From positions 1 to 54,049 of the IMG/VR virus record IMGVR_UViG_3300009370_001261: a stretch of 54,049 nt of DNA. One strand, given 5' to 3'. The position numbers were made by a program, and so were the translations under genes. Source of the stretch: a virus. Within the stretch, counting starts at the first letter, position 1. Each line of letters begins with the position of its first letter. The notes under the pieces are model-generated. The model was not told the DNA's origin, searched no databases, and was given only the letters and a program-made list of their open reading frames with translations. Shown piece after piece: positions 43,728-54,049 of this stretch.

Positions 43728-46700
43728 ATGGCAGATACAACATTAAGAAGTAGACTCAAAAGACTTTTCAGCACCAACGTGATCGTTAGACACGCAGGTG
43801 GTAAAAAGTTAAAAATAGCAGATACAAATAGAGTTCAACAAGCTACACGAAATAGTCTTGTGGATAGATGGTCCAGAATACACACTAATTTAACAACTGG
43901 TGGATACGGACACGCACAGGCAATTAGTTTTCAAGCTCAACGACTTGCACTATTTAGAGATTATGAGGAAATGGACGCTGATGCTATCATTTCAAGTGCT
44001 CTTGACATTTATGCAGATGAATGTTTAAGTTCAGATACTATAATTCCATTATTAGATGGCCGTAAATTAACAATTAAAGAATTATTTGATGAAAATGATC
44101 GAAACTTTTGGTTATACGGATTAGATGATACTGGGAATTTTATACCATCTAAAGCGGATAAGGTGGTATACAAAGGCAAATCTGAAGTGTATGAAATTAC
44201 ATTAGAAGATGGTACTATCTTAAAATCGACAGGAAACCATAGATGGGTAAATGGGAGCGGTGAATTAGTGTATACAGATACTTTAAGTGTTGGTGATGGT
44301 ATATATGCATTAAATACTAAACTTAGTGATAAAAAATTAAACGGGTATTTAATGATAAAAAATAATGGAAAATTTGATTTTGTTCATAGAATCGTTGCAA
44401 ATTCAATAGATATTTTGAAAAATATGAGAAAATCTAAATCTACGAAAGCAGTTATACATCATTCGGCATTTGATAAGTTAAATAATTCACCTGATCATTT
44501 AGAGTGGTTAGAACCTGATGATCATTGGAAAGTCCATGCAAAGTTTAATAAAGAGCTATGGTCAGACAAAAATATGGTGCATGAATATAAAGAAAAAACA
44601 ACAATGGGGCATAAAAAATACTGGACTGATGAAAATAGAAGAAAAAAATCAATAGAACAGCATGAATTTATGAATAATTTTTTGAAAAATACTACATTTG
44701 AAGATAGACAAAAATTATATGCAAATTTTGGTAGAGATAATGGAATGTATAATAACGGAAATAAACTTGAGGGTTCTAAAAATGGTAGATGGTTAACTGA
44801 TATTGATAGATTAACTGATATTGATTTAGTGGAAGTAGTAGAGTTTTTAATGGAAAATTATACGGGAGGTAGAGATACAAATGTATTTAATATAATACAA
44901 AAGAAATATAATTTTAATGTTGAAGAGTTACAAAAAGTAAAAAATAAAATATGTGAATTATATAATATAGATAATATAAAATCATTACCACGAAAATATA
45001 ATGCAATGATAAATACTCACTTGTTAGATGAGATGAGATTAGTTATTGATGATTTTGAAAAAAATCCCAAACGAAATTATGATAAATTATGTAATAAAAT
45101 AAACACAAGTAAACGTGTTTTTAATAACATTTTATATGAAAGTGGATACAAACATTTTTCAGATTTTGTAGGCAGTTCTAATCATAGAATTGTTTCTATT
45201 AAAAAACTTGAGGCTGTGGAAGATGTTTATGATATAGTAAACGCTGGTGAAAATCATATATATGCATTAGAATCCAATGATGGGTCCAAAATATATACTC
45301 ATAACAGCACTATGAAAAGTGAGTACGGTCAAGTTTTAGAAATTAGATCAGAAAATGAAAATATAAATGATATATTACACAACCTATACTATGACGTTTT
45401 GAATATAGAATTCAATTTGTGGCCGTGGGTTCGTAATATGTGTAAATATGGTGATTTTTATTTATATTTAGATATTAAAGATAAATATGGTATTACAAAT
45501 GTAGTCCCACTTTCAGCATATGACGTAACTCGTATTGAAGGTGAAGATCCAGAAAATCCATATATGGTACAGTTTGTAGTAGAAGAGGGTGATACTCGAC
45601 ATACTGGTAGAATGAGCGGACAAAAGGAATTAGAAAACTATGAAATAGCTCATTTCAGACTATTGAGTGATTCTAATTTCCTACCATACGGAAAGGGTAT
45701 GATTGAAGGCGGTCGCAAAATCTGGAAACAACTTTCATTAATGGAAGACGCCATGTTAATTCATCGTATTATGAGAGCACCAGAAAAACGAGTATTCAAA
45801 TTTGATATTGGAAACATTCCACCAGCTGAAGTTGATAATTTTATGCAGAAGGTTACAAACAAAATGAAGAAGGCTCCAGTTATGGATCCAAAAACAGGAG
45901 ATTACAACCTTCGGTATAACATACAAAATCTTACAGAGGATTTTTTCATTCCTGTTCGTGGTGGGGATAGTGGAACAGAAATTGATACTTTGAGTGGTCT
46001 TACATACGAAGCTGTGGATGATATAGAGTATCTACGAAACAAGTTAATGGCATCATTAAAGATACCAAAGGCGTTCCTTGGATACGAAGAAAATGTAGGA
46101 TGTGTAGTTCCTGAAACTGAAATTCCATTGTTAAATGGTGAAGTAAAAACTGTTAAAGATATTATTGAAGATTATGAAAATGGAATTAAACATTATACAT
46201 ATGCGATAGACCCAGAAACTAATATGATTGTTCCTGGTGAAATAGAATGGGCTGGATATACTAAAAAAGATGCTGAATTAGTTAGGGTTAATTTAGATAA
46301 TGATAAATATATTGATTGTACACCAGACCATAGATTTTTAACGAGAGATGGTGATTGGGTTGAAGCTCAAGATTTAGAAGAAAATCAATCTTTAATGCCG
46401 TTGTATTTAGATGAAACTACACAAAAGAATAAACATGGATACGTAACTGTTTATCATCCTGGAACCGGTGTATATCAAGAAGTTCATAGATTAGTAGCAG
46501 AACATTATAATATGGTAACAGCTGGTAGTGGAAAGGTCGTTCATCATGCTGATTTTAATAAAGTTAATAATAATCCCGAAAATTTTGATTGTTCTATGAA
46601 TTACATGGAACATCGACAATATCATAGTCGGTTAATTAATAAGACTATGAATTCTCCAGAAAATATCAGAAAACGTGTTCAGAAACAACGTACTGATAAT

Positions 46701-48041
46701 CACTTTGTGACTGCTGGAAGAAAGGGTGGTTTGAAATCTACTGATCGATTAGTCGCCTGGAATAAAAAACATGGTGTTTGGAATAAAGATAAAAATATTG
46801 ATGTCGAATGCAAACATTGCGGAACAATGTTTAATGTTCAATCATATAGAAAAAATACAGCATCATATTGTTCTTTCCGGTGTAGAGATGTAGCATATTC
46901 TATAAATAAAACTGGTAATACTTATAATACCAAGTATATTATTGATTATGATTACTTAGTTACTATTGCTAAAGAATGCTCTTCTTTTAAAGAATTAGAA
47001 ACAAAATTAGATTTGACAAGAAGTACGTTAAATCGAGCCTTCTATTATCATAACATAGACAAGGTTCAGTTTCTATTCAAGTACATGCCACATGCATTAA
47101 AAAACAAAAACTTTATGCAGAATTATAGACAACATGAAAAACAATATTTGAATCATACAGTCAGTTCAGTAGAGTTTTTAAGTGAAGTAAAAGATACTTG
47201 TGATTTAACAATTACAAAATATCATAATTTCGCAACAAATGCTGGGGTGATAATTCACAACTCAAAAGCGACTCTTGCGGCAGAAGATGTTAGATTTGCA
47301 AGAACAATAGAAAGACTACAACGAATCATTACAAGTGAATTAACTAAAATTGGTATAGTCCACTTATATGCACAAGGTTATACAGACCAAGAGTTAGTCA
47401 ATTTTGATTTGGCATTAAAAAATCCATCTACAATATATGAAGAGGAAAAGATAGAGTTATGGAATAACAAACAAAGTCTTGCTTCAAGTATGATGGACTC
47501 TAAAATAGCAGACACAGAGTGGATTTATGATAATATATTTAAGTTTACCGAAGATGAAAAGAAGGATGTTAGACTTGGATTGATTAAAGACCAAAAACGT
47601 AAGTTTAGATGGGAACAGATAGAACAAGAAGGAAACGACCCAGTTCAAAGTAATGAAGCAGTAGGAACACAAGGAGCAATGATAGCAGGCGGTGGTGGTG
47701 AACAAGAAGGTGGTGGAAGTCCATTTGGTAGAACCGGTAAAGAATTAGATATGGAAATGCCAGATGACGGATGGCCAGGAAGTGGTCGTCCAAAAGAGGG
47801 ACCTAAACACGGTAAAGATTCAAGTGTTAGAGGTCGAGATCCATTAGGTGCTCACGATAAGAGAAAAGGTGGCAGTGGAAGTCCAAAATATGGTCTTGCA
47901 CTAGCACATTATGATGCATTAAAGAAGAGTTTAGGTAAAGTCGGTAAGGAAGATAGAAAGATTCTATTTGAAGCTGGTGATGTAGAACAAGAATATAAGA
48001 ATGAAGTATCTTCTTCATTAAATAATGGATCAAATGATTGA
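43728..48041 (+). CDS. Portal protein, gp20 type, interrupted by two in-frame inteins
   Basis: 1437 codons; after removal of residues 99-526 and 792-1178 the exteins join to about 622 residues. Extein blocks: DIYADE then STMKSEYGQVLE; FRLLSDSNFLPYGKGMIEGG; LMASLKIPKAFLGYEENVG then SKATLAAEDVRFARTIERLQ, all hallmark gp20 sequence. The C-terminal 90 residues are Gly/Pro-rich (EQEGGGSPFGRTGKELDMEM) and longer than T4 gp20 (524 residues). The portal ring is the head nucleation vertex and the DNA gate, so splicing is required for a functional virion. GAGG 7 bases before ATG. Confidence 0.95.
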   Translation: MADTTLRSRLKRLFSTNVIVRHAGGKKLKIADTNRVQQATRNSLVDRWSRIHTNLTTGGYGHAQAISFQAQRLALFRDYEEMDADAIISSALDIYADECLSSDTIIPLLDGRKLTIKELFDENDRNFWLYGLDDTGNFIPSKADKVVYKGKSEVYEITLEDGTILKSTGNHRWVNGSGELVYTDTLSVGDGIYALNTKLSDKKLNGYLMIKNNGKFDFVHRIVANSIDILKNMRKSKSTKAVIHHSAFDKLNNSPDHLEWLEPDDHWKVHAKFNKELWSDKNMVHEYKEKTTMGHKKYWTDENRRKKSIEQHEFMNNFLKNTTFEDRQKLYANFGRDNGMYNNGNKLEGSKNGRWLTDIDRLTDIDLVEVVEFLMENYTGGRDTNVFNIIQKKYNFNVEELQKVKNKICELYNIDNIKSLPRKYNAMINTHLLDEMRLVIDDFEKNPKRNYDKLCNKINTSKRVFNNILYESGYKHFSDFVGSSNHRIVSIKKLEAVEDVYDIVNAGENHIYALESNDGSKIYTHNSTMKSEYGQVLEIRSENENINDILHNLYYDVLNIEFNLWPWVRNMCKYGDFYLYLDIKDKYGITNVVPLSAYDVTRIEGEDPENPYMVQFVVEEGDTRHTGRMSGQKELENYEIAHFRLLSDSNFLPYGKGMIEGGRKIWKQLSLMEDAMLIHRIMRAPEKRVFKFDIGNIPPAEVDNFMQKVTNKMKKAPVMDPKTGDYNLRYNIQNLTEDFFIPVRGGDSGTEIDTLSGLTYEAVDDIEYLRNKLMASLKIPKAFLGYEENVGCVVPETEIPLLNGEVKTVKDIIEDYENGIKHYTYAIDPETNMIVPGEIEWAGYTKKDAELVRVNLDNDKYIDCTPDHRFLTRDGDWVEAQDLEENQSLMPLYLDETTQKNKHGYVTVYHPGTGVYQEVHRLVAEHYNMVTAGSGKVVHHADFNKVNNNPENFDCSMNYMEHRQYHSRLINKTMNSPENIRKRVQKQRTDNHFVTAGRKGGLKSTDRLVAWNKKHGVWNKDKNIDVECKHCGTMFNVQSYRKNTASYCSFRCRDVAYSINKTGNTYNTKYIIDYDYLVTIAKECSSFKELETKLDLTRSTLNRAFYYHNIDKVQFLFKYMPHALKNKNFMQNYRQHEKQYLNHTVSSVEFLSEVKDTCDLTITKYHNFATNAGVIIHNSKATLAAEDVRFARTIERLQRIITSELTKIGIVHLYAQGYTDQELVNFDLALKNPSTIYEEEKIELWNNKQSLASSMMDSKIADTEWIYDNIFKFTEDEKKDVRLGLIKDQKRKFRWEQIEQEGNDPVQSNEAVGTQGAMIAGGGGEQEGGGSPFGRTGKELDMEMPDDGWPGSGRPKEGPKHGKDSSVRGRDPLGAHDKRKGGSGSPKYGLALAHYDALKKSLGKVGKEDRKILFEAGDVEQEYKNEVSSSLNNGSND
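44022..45305 (+). mobile_element. Intein 1 in portal (428 residues) with HNH-type endonuclease domain
   Basis: Cys99 at the N-terminus (CLSSDTIIPLLDGRKLTIKE), block B with STGNHRW, block F DVYDIVNAGENHIYALES, and block G IYTHN followed by Ser as the +1 residue. Between them an HNH-like core VIHHSAFDKLNNSPDHLEWL. All residues for class 1 splicing are present. Inserted between DIYADE and STMKSEYG. Confidence 0.9.
46101..47261 (+). mobile_element. Intein 2 in portal (387 residues) with HNH-type endonuclease domain
   Basis: Cys792 at the N-terminus (CVVPETEIPLLNGEVKTVKD), block B CTPDHRFLTRDG, block F TCDLTITKYHNFATNAG, block G VIIHN then Ser. Internal VVHHADFNKVNNNPENFD is an HNH core, followed by a CKHC...CSFRC zinc finger. 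Inserted in the conserved ENVG/SKATLAAEDVRF block. Different endonuclease context and linker from intein 1, so it was acquired separately. Confidence 0.9.
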
Positions 48042-48098: not shown

Positions 48099-48965
48099 AT
48101 GAGTCAAAGAGTAAAACACTCGAAGATCAAGAATACTGGAATACTTTTCGAGTTATTATCCCGTCAAATTACAGTAGACGTGATGAATAATAGTGGTAAG
48201 AGTAAATCCGTTGATATTTTGAAGAAATTTTTTAATGAGAATACTGAACTTGGGAAAGAAAACCAATTATATCAAGTATTATTAAAAGAAAATTACAATT
48301 CAACACGAAAAGCAGAAAAACTGTTAGAAGCTGTATTAAGATCAAGAGAAAAACTACAGAATAAAAAATTACGAAGTGAAAAGTATAATTTAATTAAGGA
48401 AATTAAGAAAAATTACAAAGTTGAAGATTTTTTTAATGCTAGAATCCCTAATTATAAGGTATATGCCTCAATATACAAAACATTTCTTGCAGAAACCACT
48501 CCGGTATTTGATCCAGCAGATGAAGTGAATAGTTCATTCACTATTGTAGAGCACGTCACAAGAAATAAAAGAAAAACAAGAAATACAGATAGCAAAACTC
48601 TTACTGAATTTAAGGGTGAAGATAAAGATTTACGATTGCTTTCATATCAATTAATGGTAGACAATTTTAACTCTAAATATAAAACTTTAAATTCAATGCA
48701 AAGAAATTTGTTAAAAGAGTATGTAAATAACATTTCCAATACTAATTCATTAAGAGAATTTATCAATGGTGAAGTTAAAAAAGTAAAAGAGATTTTAACT
48801 AAAACTTTACCAAAAATAGATGATAAGATCACGAAAATTAAATTAACAGAAGCAATAAATCAAGCTGATACGCTAACAAAAGGAAAAATTGTAAGAGATA
48901 AACAGGTTGTATCATTAATGAGATATTATGAACTTATTGGAGAATTGAGAAATGTCACGAAATAA
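48099..48965 (+). CDS. Conserved unknown head-region protein
   Basis: 288 residues, mostly helical and basic (RHSKIKNTGILFELLSRQ-like start MSQRVKHSKIKNTGILFELL; KAEKLLEAVLRSREKLQNKK). It lies between portal and protease, where T4 has the small core proteins gp67 and gp68, so a prohead-core role is possible. Contains some L/I-x-E triplets, though none in a clear linker. No family recognised. Confidence 0.5.
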   Translation: MSQRVKHSKIKNTGILFELLSRQITVDVMNNSGKSKSVDILKKFFNENTELGKENQLYQVLLKENYNSTRKAEKLLEAVLRSREKLQNKKLRSEKYNLIKEIKKNYKVEDFFNARIPNYKVYASIYKTFLAETTPVFDPADEVNSSFTIVEHVTRNKRKTRNTDSKTLTEFKGEDKDLRLLSYQLMVDNFNSKYKTLNSMQRNLLKEYVNNISNTNSLREFINGEVKKVKEILTKTLPKIDDKITKIKLTEAINQADTLTKGKIVRDKQVVSLMRYYELIGELRNVTK

Positions 48966-49527
48966 TTTAATTAGAAAAATAGTTAGAGAACTTATTAAAC
49001 AAGAATTGGGTGAAGCAAACTCAACTGGAAGTGTAGGTGGTAGTTATAACACTCCACATGCTTTCAAGGGAAGTAATAAGAAAGGTAAGAAGAAGGGTAA
49101 GGCTGGTTATACGAGAGGTCATGACGAACCAACTCGTGGAACTGGCTTATTTGTTGCAAAGGATACAAAGTTGAGAAAAGAATCCATAAATGAATCTAAA
49201 ACTCCAGGATTTACTAATAGACAATTTGGAGAACCATTGCCAACTTTTTCCGATATTATGAAAAATCATAAATCAAAGGTACGGGAAGGTAAATATCATG
49301 ATTATAGAAATGATGAATCATTAACTCCAAGACAAAAAATTGGTCAGTCAATGAAAGAAGTCCGTGATAAATTAAATGAGTTAGATAAACTGGTTAAGAT
49401 GAACGTCAAGCTTAAGAATGAATTATCCGTGGATTCCAGAAGCTACTGGAAAAACACTCATAAAGCCATGGGCAAGATTAGTGAAAAATTGGTGAAATTA
49501 TCAAATCGTATTGGGAAGATGTATTAA
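48952..49527 (+). CDS. Head-region protein with prohead-protease-like sites
   Basis: 191 residues. N-terminal amphipathic helix NLIRKIVRELIKQELGE (L-G-E at about residue 20) then ANSTGSVGG; a second site SINE before SKTPGF (about residue 82). A Lys/Gly-rich loop (KGSNKKGKKKGKAGYTRGHD) lies between, and a coiled-coil end (EVRDKLNELDKLVKMNVKLK). Cleavage would yield a short helix, a basic linker and a coiled-coil piece, as expected of a core/scaffold protein. Overlaps the previous gene by 14 bases. Confidence 0.5.
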   Translation: MSRNNLIRKIVRELIKQELGEANSTGSVGGSYNTPHAFKGSNKKGKKKGKAGYTRGHDEPTRGTGLFVAKDTKLRKESINESKTPGFTNRQFGEPLPTFSDIMKNHKSKVREGKYHDYRNDESLTPRQKIGQSMKEVRDKLNELDKLVKMNVKLKNELSVDSRSYWKNTHKAMGKISEKLVKLSNRIGKMY

Positions 49528-49535
49528 GGTCTAAA

Positions 49536-49724
49536 ATGCCCTTTACAGAAAACAAACAGTCCTATTTGGACTCTTTGTTTAGTATTTCTACTTTACTAAA
49601 AAGATGGCACACTGAAATACAAAACAAAGATATAAGTAAGAATTATATGATTGATTCATTAAGTAAGTGGATCAAAAAACTTGAAGAACTACGACATACA
49701 ATAATGATGGGAAAATCAGAATGA
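49536..49724 (+). CDS. Small helical protein
   Basis: 62 residues, MPFTENKQSYLDSLFSISTL then RWHTEIQNKDISKNYMIDSL. Predicted helices, no family. Overlaps the next start as ATGA. Confidence 0.4.
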   Translation: MPFTENKQSYLDSLFSISTLLKRWHTEIQNKDISKNYMIDSLSKWIKKLEELRHTIMMGKSE

Positions 49725-50101
49725 AAATAACTAAAACACAATTAAGAAGAATAATCAAAGAAGAAATTCAGTTACTAACTGAACGTAGTCTTTCCGGTGA
49801 AATGGAAGAATTAAAACTCTATATTGACAATGATTCTCAATTATATAATGGTACATATATTCCTATACTAAAGAATTTATCTAAAAAGAAACAAAACGGT
49901 AAATATAATAAATCATTAGCATCAAAAGGATTCATATATCTTGTTAATGATGGTGCAAATAAATACGTAAAAGACTTTGGTGGAAATGCAAGAGATATAT
50001 TTCCCAAACGACAAAGAATTATGTTGGCAAAAGATTATGTAGATGAATTTGAACAACAATATAAAAATCAAGAATATGATTTTATGAAAGTGGAGAAATA
50101 A
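49721..50101 (+). CDS. Capsid-targeted protein candidate
   Basis: 126 residues. N-terminal helix MKITKTQLRRIIKEEIQLLTE then RSLSGEMEEL: L-T-E site at residue 21. The helix resembles those ending in I-T-E in the gene at 51278 and L-N-E in the polyprotein at 52100. The rest is a mixed alpha/beta region (KGFIYLVNDGANKYVKDFGG) without a recognised fold. ATGA overlap with the previous gene. Confidence 0.5.
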   Translation: MKITKTQLRRIIKEEIQLLTERSLSGEMEELKLYIDNDSQLYNGTYIPILKNLSKKKQNGKYNKSLASKGFIYLVNDGANKYVKDFGGNARDIFPKRQRIMLAKDYVDEFEQQYKNQEYDFMKVEK

Positions 50102-50663: not shown

Positions 50664-51275
50664 ATGGCTAAGCAGCTAATTGTAGATTATTTACCATTTT
50701 CGGTAAGTAGAGAACAAATAAACGAATCACTAAAAACTAACCAGGGCAGATTAATCGTACACGGAGTATTACAGAGAGCAGACGCTAAAAACCAGAATGG
50801 ACGTGTATATCCTGGTAAAATCCTCGCACGAGAAGCAAAGAAATATTCCGAAGGGTTTATTAATCAAAAACGGGCAATGGGTGAATTAGACCATCCAGAA
50901 TCATCCGTGGTAAATTTACAAAATGTATCTCATAATGTCACAGAAATGCATTGGGAAGGAGCTAACCTTGTTGGAACAGTAGAAGTATTGGGGACTCCAA
51001 GTGGAAACATTCTAACAGAATTATTTAAGGCGGGAATCAAATTAGGTATATCATCAAGAGGTATGGGTTCAGTGGAACCACTTAAAGAAGGTGAAGGACA
51101 ACAAGTGGGTGATGATTTTGAGTTAATTGCATTTGATTTTGTTAGTAATCCAAGTACACACGGTGCATTTCTATATCCACTTAAAGAGGGTGTAGATAAA
51201 GTAGAAGATGGTAGAACTTGTGGTAAATACTGTAAAGTAGAATTTATAATTAACGATATTATTAGAGGAGAATAG
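50664..51275 (+). CDS. Prohead core protease, gp21 type
   Basis: 203 residues. Family marks: GRLIVHGVLQRADAKNQNGR, GELDHP with catalytic His77, NLQNVSHNVTEMHWEGANLV, TPSGNILTELFKAGIKLG, SSRGMGS with Ser130/131. T4 gp21 digests the prohead core and cleaves head proteins after [L/I]-x-E, and the same sites occur in many genes of this window. AGGAG before ATG. The distal tail (EDGRTCGKYCKVEFIINDII) is unusual. Key enzyme for the cargo hypothesis. Confidence 0.9.
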   Translation: MAKQLIVDYLPFSVSREQINESLKTNQGRLIVHGVLQRADAKNQNGRVYPGKILAREAKKYSEGFINQKRAMGELDHPESSVVNLQNVSHNVTEMHWEGANLVGTVEVLGTPSGNILTELFKAGIKLGISSRGMGSVEPLKEGEGQQVGDDFELIAFDFVSNPSTHGAFLYPLKEGVDKVEDGRTCGKYCKVEFIINDIIRGE

Positions 51276-51277
51276 TA

Positions 51278-51760
51278 ATGAAATTAAATGAATCAGTAAA
51301 AATGCACACTCTTAGTGGAAATAAAAAGTTTATGACTAAAACTGCTATTCCAATTATTAGAAAATATGGTGTTAAGAATATGAAAGCACATCTTGTAGGA
51401 GGTACATTTTTAGAGTTAAGATTTGCTATTGATTCTAATAAACTTAAACAGTTAGATAAAGAATTAAAGAAAAAGAATAAAACTGCTTATGGTGGTATTG
51501 TTGAAAATAGGATAACCAAACTGACTGAATCACAGTTAAGAGAAATGATTAGAGAAATGATTACGGAAGATGGTGATGCATTTGACGCTCCAATTCCTGC
51601 ACAAGTAAAACGATACATGGGTAAATTTATCGGTGCAGTTCAAGGTGCTAAATTAAACAGAAAACGAACAGGTGCTATTCTCGGTCAAGTAGTTAATGCA
51701 CTTGGTATTGAACCAAATGAACTAATGAGATATGTTAGATTAGTTAAAAAGGGACTATAA
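51278..51760 (+). CDS. Head-region protein with internal cleavage-like site
   Basis: 160 residues. N-terminal part begins MKLNESVKMHTLSGNKKFMT; LTESQLREMIREMITE (about residues 84-99) then DGDAFDAPIPA gives an I-T-E site in the middle. The C-terminal piece is helical and basic (IGAVQGAKLNRKRTGAILGQ). It could be cut in two by the protease encoded just upstream. No family recognised. Confidence 0.45.
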   Translation: MKLNESVKMHTLSGNKKFMTKTAIPIIRKYGVKNMKAHLVGGTFLELRFAIDSNKLKQLDKELKKKNKTAYGGIVENRITKLTESQLREMIREMITEDGDAFDAPIPAQVKRYMGKFIGAVQGAKLNRKRTGAILGQVVNALGIEPNELMRYVRLVKKGL

Positions 51761-51762
51761 AA

Positions 51763-52023
51763 ATGAAAGATAGACAAATATACGAAATGAATAAAAAATG
51801 GCGTGAATATCGTCTTGAAGAAACTAAAGAACCCATTACAGAAGGTGTTAAGAATGAATTGGCAGATGTAATGACAAGATATTTACTTGGAAATAGAAAA
51901 ACTGCAGTTAAGCAATTAGAAAAATTGAGTAAAAAGTTTGATGCTGAAGGTGGAATGGATCAAGAATATTATGGGTATGTTTATACTCAATTTTTAAGAG
52001 TGATAAATAAAGTAGTAAGTTAA
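51763..52023 (+). CDS. Small helical protein with cleavage-like site
   Basis: 86 residues. MNKKWREYRLEETKEPITEG has an I-T-E followed by Gly (residues about 26-28), then helix (VKNELADVMTRYLLGNRKTA, VKQLEKLSKKFDAEGGMDQE). Possibly a prohead core component released by the protease. No family match. Confidence 0.45.
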   Translation: MKDRQIYEMNKKWREYRLEETKEPITEGVKNELADVMTRYLLGNRKTAVKQLEKLSKKFDAEGGMDQEYYGYVYTQFLRVINKVVS

Positions 52024-52024
52024 A

Positions 52025-52048
52025 ATGAAACCTGGTCACCATACTTGA
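52025..52048 (+). CDS. Short reading frame ending in a TGA in frame with the next gene
   Basis: ATG encodes MKPGHHT and ends at TGA. The same frame then stays open (PYSGEEHPVWVKHEEE) into the gene at 52100, so a single stop separates a plausible N-terminus from the body. No ribosome site is visible before this ATG. Confidence 0.3.
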   Translation: MKPGHHT

Positions 52049-52099
52049 CCTTATAGTGGTGAAGAACACCCAGTTTGGGTGAAACATGAGGAAGAACCT

Positions 52100-54049
52100 A
52101 TGGACGAATATAAATCAAGATTATCAGCCTATCTTAGTGATATGGTAAGAGAAGAACTTGAAAAATACGATGGTGGATTCACCGATGAGTGGAATGACCA
52201 ACGAAAAAAGAATGCTGAAGTCTTAGGATATAAACTTTCGGGTAAAAGTGATATAAAAGAGGGAGCAACTGAATTTTGGCAGGATATGTTTAGACCAGGT
52301 AATATTCCAAACCAATACATAAACCAATTAATAAAGAAAAAAGGTGAACTTCCATCTAAGTCTCATATAAAAAAAATATACAGAGATAATGGAAATCCAA
52401 GTTCAAGTCAATTATCAAAGGCATTTAAACAGTTAGCAAAAGAAAAATATATTAAAAAACAAGGTAGTTTATGGAAATGGGAATCAGGTTTTGCTTGGAG
52501 AACTGGTACAGAATTAGAATCCGTAAATGAAAAAAGAATAAAAAATTCACCTTTAAGAAGAAATATTACATCTACATTTAAAGATTTAGATAAAAAATTT
52601 AGAAAAAAATTAACCAGTAGTGACATAGATAATGTAGCATCTCATATAACATCTAAGAATAGATATTTTCCTAAAGACTTGGCTAATGTTGCAGCTGAGT
52701 ATTTTTATGCATATAAACGACGCAAGTTAAAAATAAACCAAGCAATACAGGCTACTATAAATTATCAAAGAGGATATCCGTATAAAACCTATCGTACTGG
52801 TACAGAATTAGAATCCGTAAATGAAACTAAAAAGAGAGATTACAAAGCAGAATACAAAAAATATGGTTCATCTACAAAAGCAAAAAAATATAGAGCAGAA
52901 TTAAATAAGTATAACAGACAAAAAGGTACTTACGGTAACGGAGATGGAAAAGATGCTTCACATAAGGGAGGAAAAATCGTGGGATTTGAAAAGGAATCTA
53001 CTAATAGAGGTAGAGCCGAAAAGAGTAGATTGAAAAAAGAGATTACAGTAAAGGAAGGAAACTTCAAAATATCTAAACGAGATGCTAATAAATACAATAA
53101 ATTAGCACAAAAAGGTAACCCAGTAGGATTAGATTTAGATATTAGACCGGGTTGGTTAAGTTGGGAAGATGGAGATTATAAAACTCAATCTATAATTGGA
53201 GATGATGAAAATGGTAGAGAACACGAAATTAGATTTTCAGATGTGGTTAGAGTTAATGAATCTATGAACGAACAAAAATTAAGAAAAGTCATTAGAGATA
53301 TTTTGAATGAAGGCAAACCAAAGATTTATTCACTTCCAACAAGAAAACAAGATATTATCTATAAAATGTTATGGCATAGAAATCAACCAAAATGGCATAC
53401 ACCAGGAGAATTTGAACAATTTATTAAAAAGTATTTTAACAATTACCTTCCACCTCATATTGCTGACGGATTGAAAAAAACAAAGAGCGCTGAAGATTTT
53501 GTTAAATTTGTTAGAAAATTTGATTTCAAAGAAAGTGTTAATGAAGCAACAGAATTTATCGCAATTTACAACAGAAAAAAGATTATAGTAAAAGGTGATA
53601 GCCTTTATGATGCTAAATTACAAGCTATTAAACAATTAAAAGTTCCAAAATCAAAACAAGGTTATTTATCTATTATGTCTAAAAAAGGATATGATGACCA
53701 ACAATTTAGATATGAAAACATAAACGAAGCGAAAGTTCCAAAAAACATTAAAATATCTAAGCAAGGATATGTAAAACAAGTTCGTCATCCAATGACAAAT
53801 AAAATATTAAAAGCTATATATGTAAAAGGAAATAAATACCAGTATAATTCAGTATATAAAACATATAATAGTGTAAGGGGTAATCAACTATTATACAAGA
53901 CTGATATTGAGGGTATTAAGTATGAGAATATAAACGAAGGCATTTCCCAAGGTGATATTAAAGTAATTGATACACATGATATTCCTTCTTTTAAAGAAAC
54001 TAAACATTCTTACGAATTAGTGTATGTAATAAAACCAAGAGTTTTAGGT
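52100..54049 (+). CDS. Polyprotein with many prohead-protease-like sites (open at right edge)
   Basis: At least 650 codons with no stop before the edge; start ATG at 52100 with GAGGAAG 6-12 bases upstream. Candidate cuts fall after residues 144 and 242 (SVNE), 404 (ILNE then GKPK), 482 (SVNE then ATEF), 543 (NINE then AKVP), 613 (NINE then GISQ), giving fragments of about 98, 162, 78, 61 and 70 residues. RTGTELESVNE occurs twice, exactly 98 codons apart, and ENINE twice. LRKVIRDILNE at about 394-404 resembles the targeting helices of other genes. Fragment ATEFIAIYNRKKIIVKGDSL looks like a small DNA-binding domain. Likely a core/internal-protein precursor cut during head maturation. Confidence 0.6.
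   Translation, partial: MDEYKSRLSAYLSDMVREELEKYDGGFTDEWNDQRKKNAEVLGYKLSGKSDIKEGATEFWQDMFRPGNIPNQYINQLIKKKGELPSKSHIKKIYRDNGNPSSSQLSKAFKQLAKEKYIKKQGSLWKWESGFAWRTGTELESVNEKRIKNSPLRRNITSTFKDLDKKFRKKLTSSDIDNVASHITSKNRYFPKDLANVAAEYFYAYKRRKLKINQAIQATINYQRGYPYKTYRTGTELESVNETKKRDYKAEYKKYGSSTKAKKYRAELNKYNRQKGTYGNGDGKDASHKGGKIVGFEKESTNRGRAEKSRLKKEITVKEGNFKISKRDANKYNKLAQKGNPVGLDLDIRPGWLSWEDGDYKTQSIIGDDENGREHEIRFSDVVRVNESMNEQKLRKVIRDILNEGKPKIYSLPTRKQDIIYKMLWHRNQPKWHTPGEFEQFIKKYFNNYLPPHIADGLKKTKSAEDFVKFVRKFDFKESVNEATEFIAIYNRKKIIVKGDSLYDAKLQAIKQLKVPKSKQGYLSIMSKKGYDDQQFRYENINEAKVPKNIKISKQGYVKQVRHPMTNKILKAIYVKGNKYQYNSVYKTYNSVRGNQLLYKTDIEGIKYENINEGISQGDIKVIDTHDIPSFKETKHSYELVYVIKPRVLG
52502..52826 (+). repeat. 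Two copies of a 31-base direct repeat coding TGTELESVNE
   Basis: Identical 31-base blocks at 52502-52532 and 52796-52826, 294 bases (98 codons) apart and in the same frame. They encode the sequence around a predicted protease site, so duplicating the spacer would duplicate a cleavable unit. Confidence 0.8.

Follow-up and report, generated by a model that had tools for sequence, protein, structure and literature searches.

At the right end of a marine T4-like virus genome, an uncultured virus of bacteria, lies the 5' part of a 941-aa reading frame which we interpret, with fairly good confidence, as a cargo polyprotein of internal (ejection) proteins processed by a gp21-type prohead protease. 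The DNA analysed, called the window throughout, is the whole stretch of 54,049 nucleotides (positions 1 to 54,049) of the IMG/VR record IMGVR_UViG_3300009370_001261. Sequence comparison supports the reading frame, its sites and module boundaries, the swapping of leaders and cassettes, the position in an island, and the homology of the protease and of the capsid site; cleavage, packaging, ejection and the roles of the pieces are inferred.

In the proposed scheme, a late gene would encode a chain of small, mostly basic cargo modules, and the N-terminal leader together with internal leader-like segments would attach this chain to the prohead core. The gp21-type protease encoded nearby would cut behind the E of [ILV]-X-E junctions, most of them ES[VI]NE, freeing modules of about 60-145 aa which would stay in the head and be ejected with the DNA, like the T4 internal proteins and Alt; recombination at the junctions would trade modules between polyproteins and stand-alone leader-tagged genes. 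If true, it would provide a clear example of a DNA phage whose prohead protease processes a polyprotein, and a compact means for abundant marine phages to vary a whole set of ejected proteins. No earlier description of such a polyprotein was found in the open-access literature.

The reading frame and its modules

The frame is open from 52049, directly after a TGA at 52046-52048, up to 54049, and a frame scan bore out the preliminary description in finding no stop between 52100 and the right edge. Extension to the right, which that description had called for, was provided by a near-identical contig (L002, IMGVR_UViG_3300007770_000522; 1 mismatch in the 9950-bp overlap): the stop is found at L002:10805, equivalent to window position 54904 and 855 nt past the edge, and further sites precede it. 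The protein has 941 aa if it starts at GTG 52079 and 934 aa if it starts at ATG 52100, and we cannot decide between the two; AGGA sits 7 bases 5' of the ATG, and the equivalent codon in relatives is ATG, TTG or GTG. The chain comprises about eight to ten modules. In the following list and below, an arrow marks the putative cut.

52025..52099, + strand: conserved 5' element, a mini-ORF M-K-P-G-H-H-T-TGA and then in-frame PYSGEEHPVW
52079..54049, + strand: 5' part of the putative cargo polyprotein ORF, starting at GTG 52079 or ATG 52100; dN < dS against relatives
52079..52261, + strand: module 0, leader KHEEEPMDEYKSR...REEL and a tail ending SDIKE↓; four other next modules in L103, L087, L004 and L108
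52262..52531, + strand: module 1, FWQDMFRPG...RTGTELESVNE↓; homologues with differing neighbours in L110, L080, L009, L031 and L188
52502..52531, + strand: first copy of a perfect 30-bp DNA repeat ending GAATCCGTAAATGAA (ESVNE)
52532..52825, + strand: module 2, KRIKNSPLRR...RTGTELESVNE↓; 94% identical in L004, 44% in L016
52796..52825, + strand: second copy of the perfect 30-bp repeat
52826..53260, + strand: module 3, RDYKAEYKKYGSS...VRVNE↓; phrog_6437, unknown function (PHROG E 1.2e-12)
53261..53311, + strand: embedded leader-like segment SMNEQKLRKVIRDILNE↓, resembling N-terminal leaders of stand-alone island ORFs
53312..53545, + strand: module 5, GKPKIYSLPT...KESVNE↓; bounded by sites, no homologue in fetched loci
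53546..53728, + strand: module 6, ATEFIAIYNR...ENINE↓; 66% in L088
53729..53938, + strand: module 7, AKVPKNIKIS...ENINE↓; bounded by sites, no homologue in fetched loci
53939..54049, + strand: module 8, truncated by the window end; runs to ...LESINE↓ in L002

Six [I/L/V]-N-E sites had been counted in the window part; there are in fact seven, or eight with one MNE. Their spacing, given as 60-160 residues, holds for gaps of 61-145 aa, the exceptions being two short pieces, 17 and 26 aa long, that look like leaders, and the duplicated flanks are real: ENINE occurs twice, as does RTGTELESVNE, which is a perfect 30-bp repeat at the DNA level. The whole ORF contains ten [ILV]NE, with site E positions at 151, 249, 394, (398), 411, 489, 550, 620, 722, 808 and 834. 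Shuffling the protein 5000 times gave a mean of 0.78 and never as many as ten, a 13-fold enrichment; elsewhere in the window, long + strand ORFs have 1.09 per 941 aa. The control motifs [ILV]ND, [ILV]EN and [ILV]QE are absent from the polyprotein, and the looser [ILV].E shows no more than a mild excess (17 against 12.4 expected, P 0.09).

Module homology was determined by BLAST with composition correction; uncorrected BLAST over-extended across modules, and alignment of whole polyproteins put modules in wrong stacks. Counting the window, five different sequences are found after module 0, which ends SDIKE↓ or SDVKE↓ and has a leader of an unusual type, with its first clear site at aa 61. Module 1, which terminates in ESVNE↓ or ESVDE↓, is flanked differently in L110, L080 and L031; its AlphaFold model is unreliable (pLDDT 55), lowest at the C-terminal site. 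The borders of module 2 are kept in L004, where a different module follows, and in L016, where it ends ESIKE↓, and the module 6 homologue in L088 stands after an embedded leader TQLRNMIREELTYLNE↓ and before another module. Module 3 is present in 107 fetched loci, and modules 5, 7, 8 and 9 have few or no homologues. The comparison of boundaries asked for in the preliminary description was thus favourable to it, as module ends carry ESVNE, ESVDE, ESIKE or ENINE and different modules follow; homologues lacking the sites would have refuted it, and they retain them. Several overlapping genes with independent starts would equally have done so. This arrangement was rejected: the junctions lack a start codon with a Shine-Dalgarno-like sequence, the latter being absent from every junction of the polyprotein, and dN < dS for the parts compared with L110 and L004.

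Pfam gave no significant match for the 941-aa protein. Among cultured phages, module 3 alone of the modules found a match, in two Synechococcus phages, and the leader found none. A Saprospiraceae host was considered and rejected, the only host-contig match being a 3.5-kb contig binned as Saprospiraceae, which is too weak.

A hypervariable island and the exchange of its cassettes

Dozens of marine contigs have the same hypervariable island, flanked by conserved head genes of the T4 type. With few exceptions, the gene order in 37 fetched contigs is gp21 - variable interval - p212 - rpsU - gp22 - gp23, and the interval between gp21 and gp23 varies from 1.7 to 9.4 kb and contains small ORFs together with longer ones bearing [ILV]-X-E sites, DUF3008 being a frequent N-terminal domain of the latter in relatives. 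The window polyprotein opens the island, separated from gp21 by two small ORFs. The neighbouring features are:

48952..49527, + strand: p191, encoded between portal and gp21; a 31-aa cassette (49195-49287) lies between ESINE↓ and VRE↓
49721..50101, + strand: small protein, leader MKITKTQLRRIIKEEIQLLTE↓ and cargo RSLSGEMEELKLYIDND
50664..51275, + strand: gp21-type prohead protease, the candidate processing enzyme (phrog_207, 5e-51; T4 gp21 5jbl_A, 5.7e-15)
51278..51760, + strand: two-part cargo ORF, embedded leader LTESQLREMIREMITE↓ followed by DGDAFDAPIPAQVKRYM
51763..52023, + strand: small cargo ORF with a leader ending KEPITE↓

The junction motif occurs 185 times in 77,206 aa of island ORFs against 40 times in 255,354 aa of conserved structural genes, at a median spacing of 75 aa (quartiles 62-113). 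Of 275 residues directly after ES[VI]NE, 152 are G, A or S. Island ORFs have a median pI of 9.7, and most modules are basic. Searches of Pfam, NCBIfam, PADLOC and PHROGs returned almost only unknowns, without any PADLOC match; DUF3008 and a few singletons are the sole recognised domains in 132 island proteins, and the predicted fold of a GHWDGYP-family cargo (pLDDT 70) had no significant PDB match. The cargo domain of this type at L002:14025-14483 also has counterparts, listed as hypothetical proteins, in GAP32-like jumbo phages, Caulobacter phages and cyanophages.

Six recognisable types of leader account for the starts of about half of the 360 distinct island ORFs, MKITKSQLRxIIREEIQxLNE↓ and MIKLKDLLxE↓ being two of them; a leader sequence in this system is MKITKSQLRQIIREEIQSLNE. 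Of 346 island ORFs, 68% have an [ILVM].E between aa 6 and 30, as against 32% of random internal stretches. Leaders are exchanged on one and the same cargo, the joint falling exactly after E: the cargo of window gene 49721-50101 stands behind MIKLKDLLLE↓ in L004 and L005, that of 51278-51760 is preceded by other leaders in L088 and L012, and the GTRW...GHWDGYP cargo has three different leaders with joints at -[NT]E↓. Modules also pass between stand-alone and internal positions, the L002 protein MKITKSQLREIIREEIQMLDE↓GRISPKKVQS being the counterpart of the internal L088 module ENINE↓AIVKPSKVQS. At the p191 junction, L005 and L006 are free of a cassette (ESVVNE↓GRYHAW), and cassettes of varied length are found in the window, L086, L103, L197 and L004. 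On a single contig (L007 and L105) there are two copies of the module ANASVIRK..., one preceded by a short leader and the other, in a different ORF, by ESVNE↓.

Ungapped homology breakpoints among the 360 distinct ORFs fall on [ILVM]-X-E in 31% of cases against 9.7% at random, with a maximum of 11.4% across 200 random trials, and the E of [ILVM][NK]E lies exactly at the breakpoint 178 times, offsets of more than 7 residues being seen about 10-30 times. Since the loci are not independent and near-copy contigs make raw counts overstate the effect, we repeated the test with one breakpoint per family: 22.7% fall on [ILVM]-X-E against 5.7% at random, and about three quarters fall off any site.

The nearest cultured phage by gp21, Microcystis phage Mel-JY01, has no polyprotein at the equivalent place. 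Its gp21-gp22 interval holds a 388-aa protein (L082:13401-14567) which by eye resembles an ADP-ribosyltransferase (Alt-like) and lies at the position of the relatives' cargo. An rpsU-like gene (ribosomal protein S21; L002:16230-16496 and relatives) lies in the head operon directly 5' of gp22 throughout the group. The window portal gp20 (43728-48041) is 1437 aa long where relatives have about 620, with two insertions which, judged by their starting with C, ending with HN before S and containing HNH endonuclease domains, look like inteins.

The candidate processing enzyme and known systems

The window gp21 keeps the catalytic His and Ser positions, GELDHP and GISSRG aligning with T4 H85 and S140. 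In 26 relatives, the gp23 propeptide site aligned to T4 gp23 E65 reads I/V-[DKSTN]-E↓[ASNF], and in one it is INE↓. The T4 gp21 motif is L/I-X-E, with several cuts per core protein yielding fragments (PMC9026906). The proposal that a gp21-type protease releases a chain of small domains is strengthened by the sites in homologues, the gp21 homologue and the I/V-X-E of the capsid, and the cutting itself and the presence of the cargo in virions remain inferred; the preliminary description had not noted the leaders, the trading of cassettes or the conservation of the junction as DNA. These are uncultured phages without protein data; L/I-X-E is a weak motif, V at P3 exceeds the T4 rule (V is found in the capsid sites of two relatives), and some junctions are degenerate (ESVDE, ESIKE, plain KKE).

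The T4 internal proteins are ejected proteins, and IPI blocks a restriction enzyme. IPI, IPII, IPIII and Alt share with the polyprotein a short leader ending hydrophobic-X-E, a gp21-type protease, basic variable cargo and an exchangeable leader, and the leaders MIKLKDLLxE↓ and MAKLKDLIKE↓ resemble those of T4 gp24 (MAKINELLRE↓) and IPII/IPIII (MKTYQEFIAE↓). The criteria of a leader ending L/I-X-E, its separability from the cargo and an encoded gp21-type protease are met, but one cargo per gene is not: T4 has single-cargo genes away from the head cluster, whereas here many cargos share one ORF, cassettes are exchanged inside the head cluster and longer leader types also occur. T4 gp21 strips ejected proteins of their capsid-targeting (CTS) propeptides (PMC7411985); in the giant phages SPN3US and phiKZ a gp21 relative likewise cleaves C-terminal to glutamate in proteins that are ejected, but this removes a propeptide and does not free a set of cargos from a single chain. 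Polyvalent proteins of phages and conjugative elements are multi-module chains thought to be co-delivered with DNA, and have been likened to RNA-virus polyproteins (Iyer et al. 2017, PMC5512222). Their domains are recognisable and mostly enzymatic, some with an in-chain metallopeptidase, whereas the modules here, of 60-145 aa, hardly ever contain a known domain and the prohead protease is a protein of its own; the criterion of multiple recognised effector domains is not met in Pfam or PADLOC.

The junctions might instead serve mainly as flexible linkers, or as recombination handles with a conserved DNA word at which cassettes are traded in frame, in a head or core protein that works uncut, like beads on a string; this we hold to be unlikely. 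What speaks for it is the DNA: ES[VI]NE is encoded by GAATCCGTAAATGAA in 72 of 170 junctions (15 bp identical), and TCC encodes its Ser in 104 of 174 (60%) against 6.1% elsewhere in island ORFs. Each of the 97 distinct contexts of the 15-bp word (G or A at the seventh base) in the first loci places it in frame, and the word alone retrieves the island from IMG/VR, most of the matches listed being in frame as ESVNE and most accompanied by the head genes of this group. A whole-contig search with GAATCYRTAAATGAA found it in five of six long contigs, clustered within about 2 kb in four and single-copy in one. From codon bias and word identity we infer that the junction is conserved or has spread as DNA too, which suggests that it also acts, or spreads, as a recombination handle; the strong bias could mean that the junction is kept or spread for recombination instead of cleavage, and we cannot tell a handle from recent common descent. 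However, many junctions are coded otherwise (ENINE, ESVDE, ESIKE, LTE) and keep hydrophobic-X-E, as at the capsid site, and leaders too are swapped at -X-E↓. For candidate ejected proteins without known function, ES[VI]NE and GAATCCGTAAATGAA provide a sequence tag.

It is quite improbable, in our estimation, that the polyprotein is a core scaffold like T4 gp22, gp67 and gp68, chopped at its sites into fragments that exit the prohead without being delivered. These proteins share with it several gp21 cuts per chain and the gene neighbourhood among core genes, and the pieces are small; but they are degraded scaffold not known to be modular or hypervariable, no gp22 family match to the ORF was obtained in PHROG or Pfam, and relatives have a separate gp22 homologue downstream. 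Hypervariability, and the same mostly basic modules in stand-alone leader-tagged genes, suit diversifying cargo better. Chance motifs or an assembly artefact can practically be set aside: the genome is AT-rich, the protein K/E/N-rich and the loose motif barely in excess, but the strong [ILV]NE enrichment, agreement of contigs from other assemblies and an architecture shared by dozens of relatives stand against them.

The 5' element

All of about 20 distinct sequences with the 5' element have the in-frame TGA (HHT, stop, PYSGEEHPVW). Hairpins are predicted, one with a covarying pair (52067-52081) and one spanning AGGA and ATG 52100; the fold z-scores are weak, and an Rfam search gave no match above chance. 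UGA suppression by a tRNA was rejected, as the window encodes none and 15 of 52 ORFs use TGA as a normal stop. It remains doubtful that the 15-bp in-frame word is both protease site and recombination handle, through which arrays of ejected proteins are reassorted between genomes, with the UGA-and-hairpin leader controlling or recoding the start. Recoding or translational control of the polyprotein by the 5' element is possible. Over codons 4-17, the divergent L013 excepted, variable columns are third codon positions, as if both sides of the TGA were translated; the predicted hairpins explain much of this pattern, and the matter is left open.
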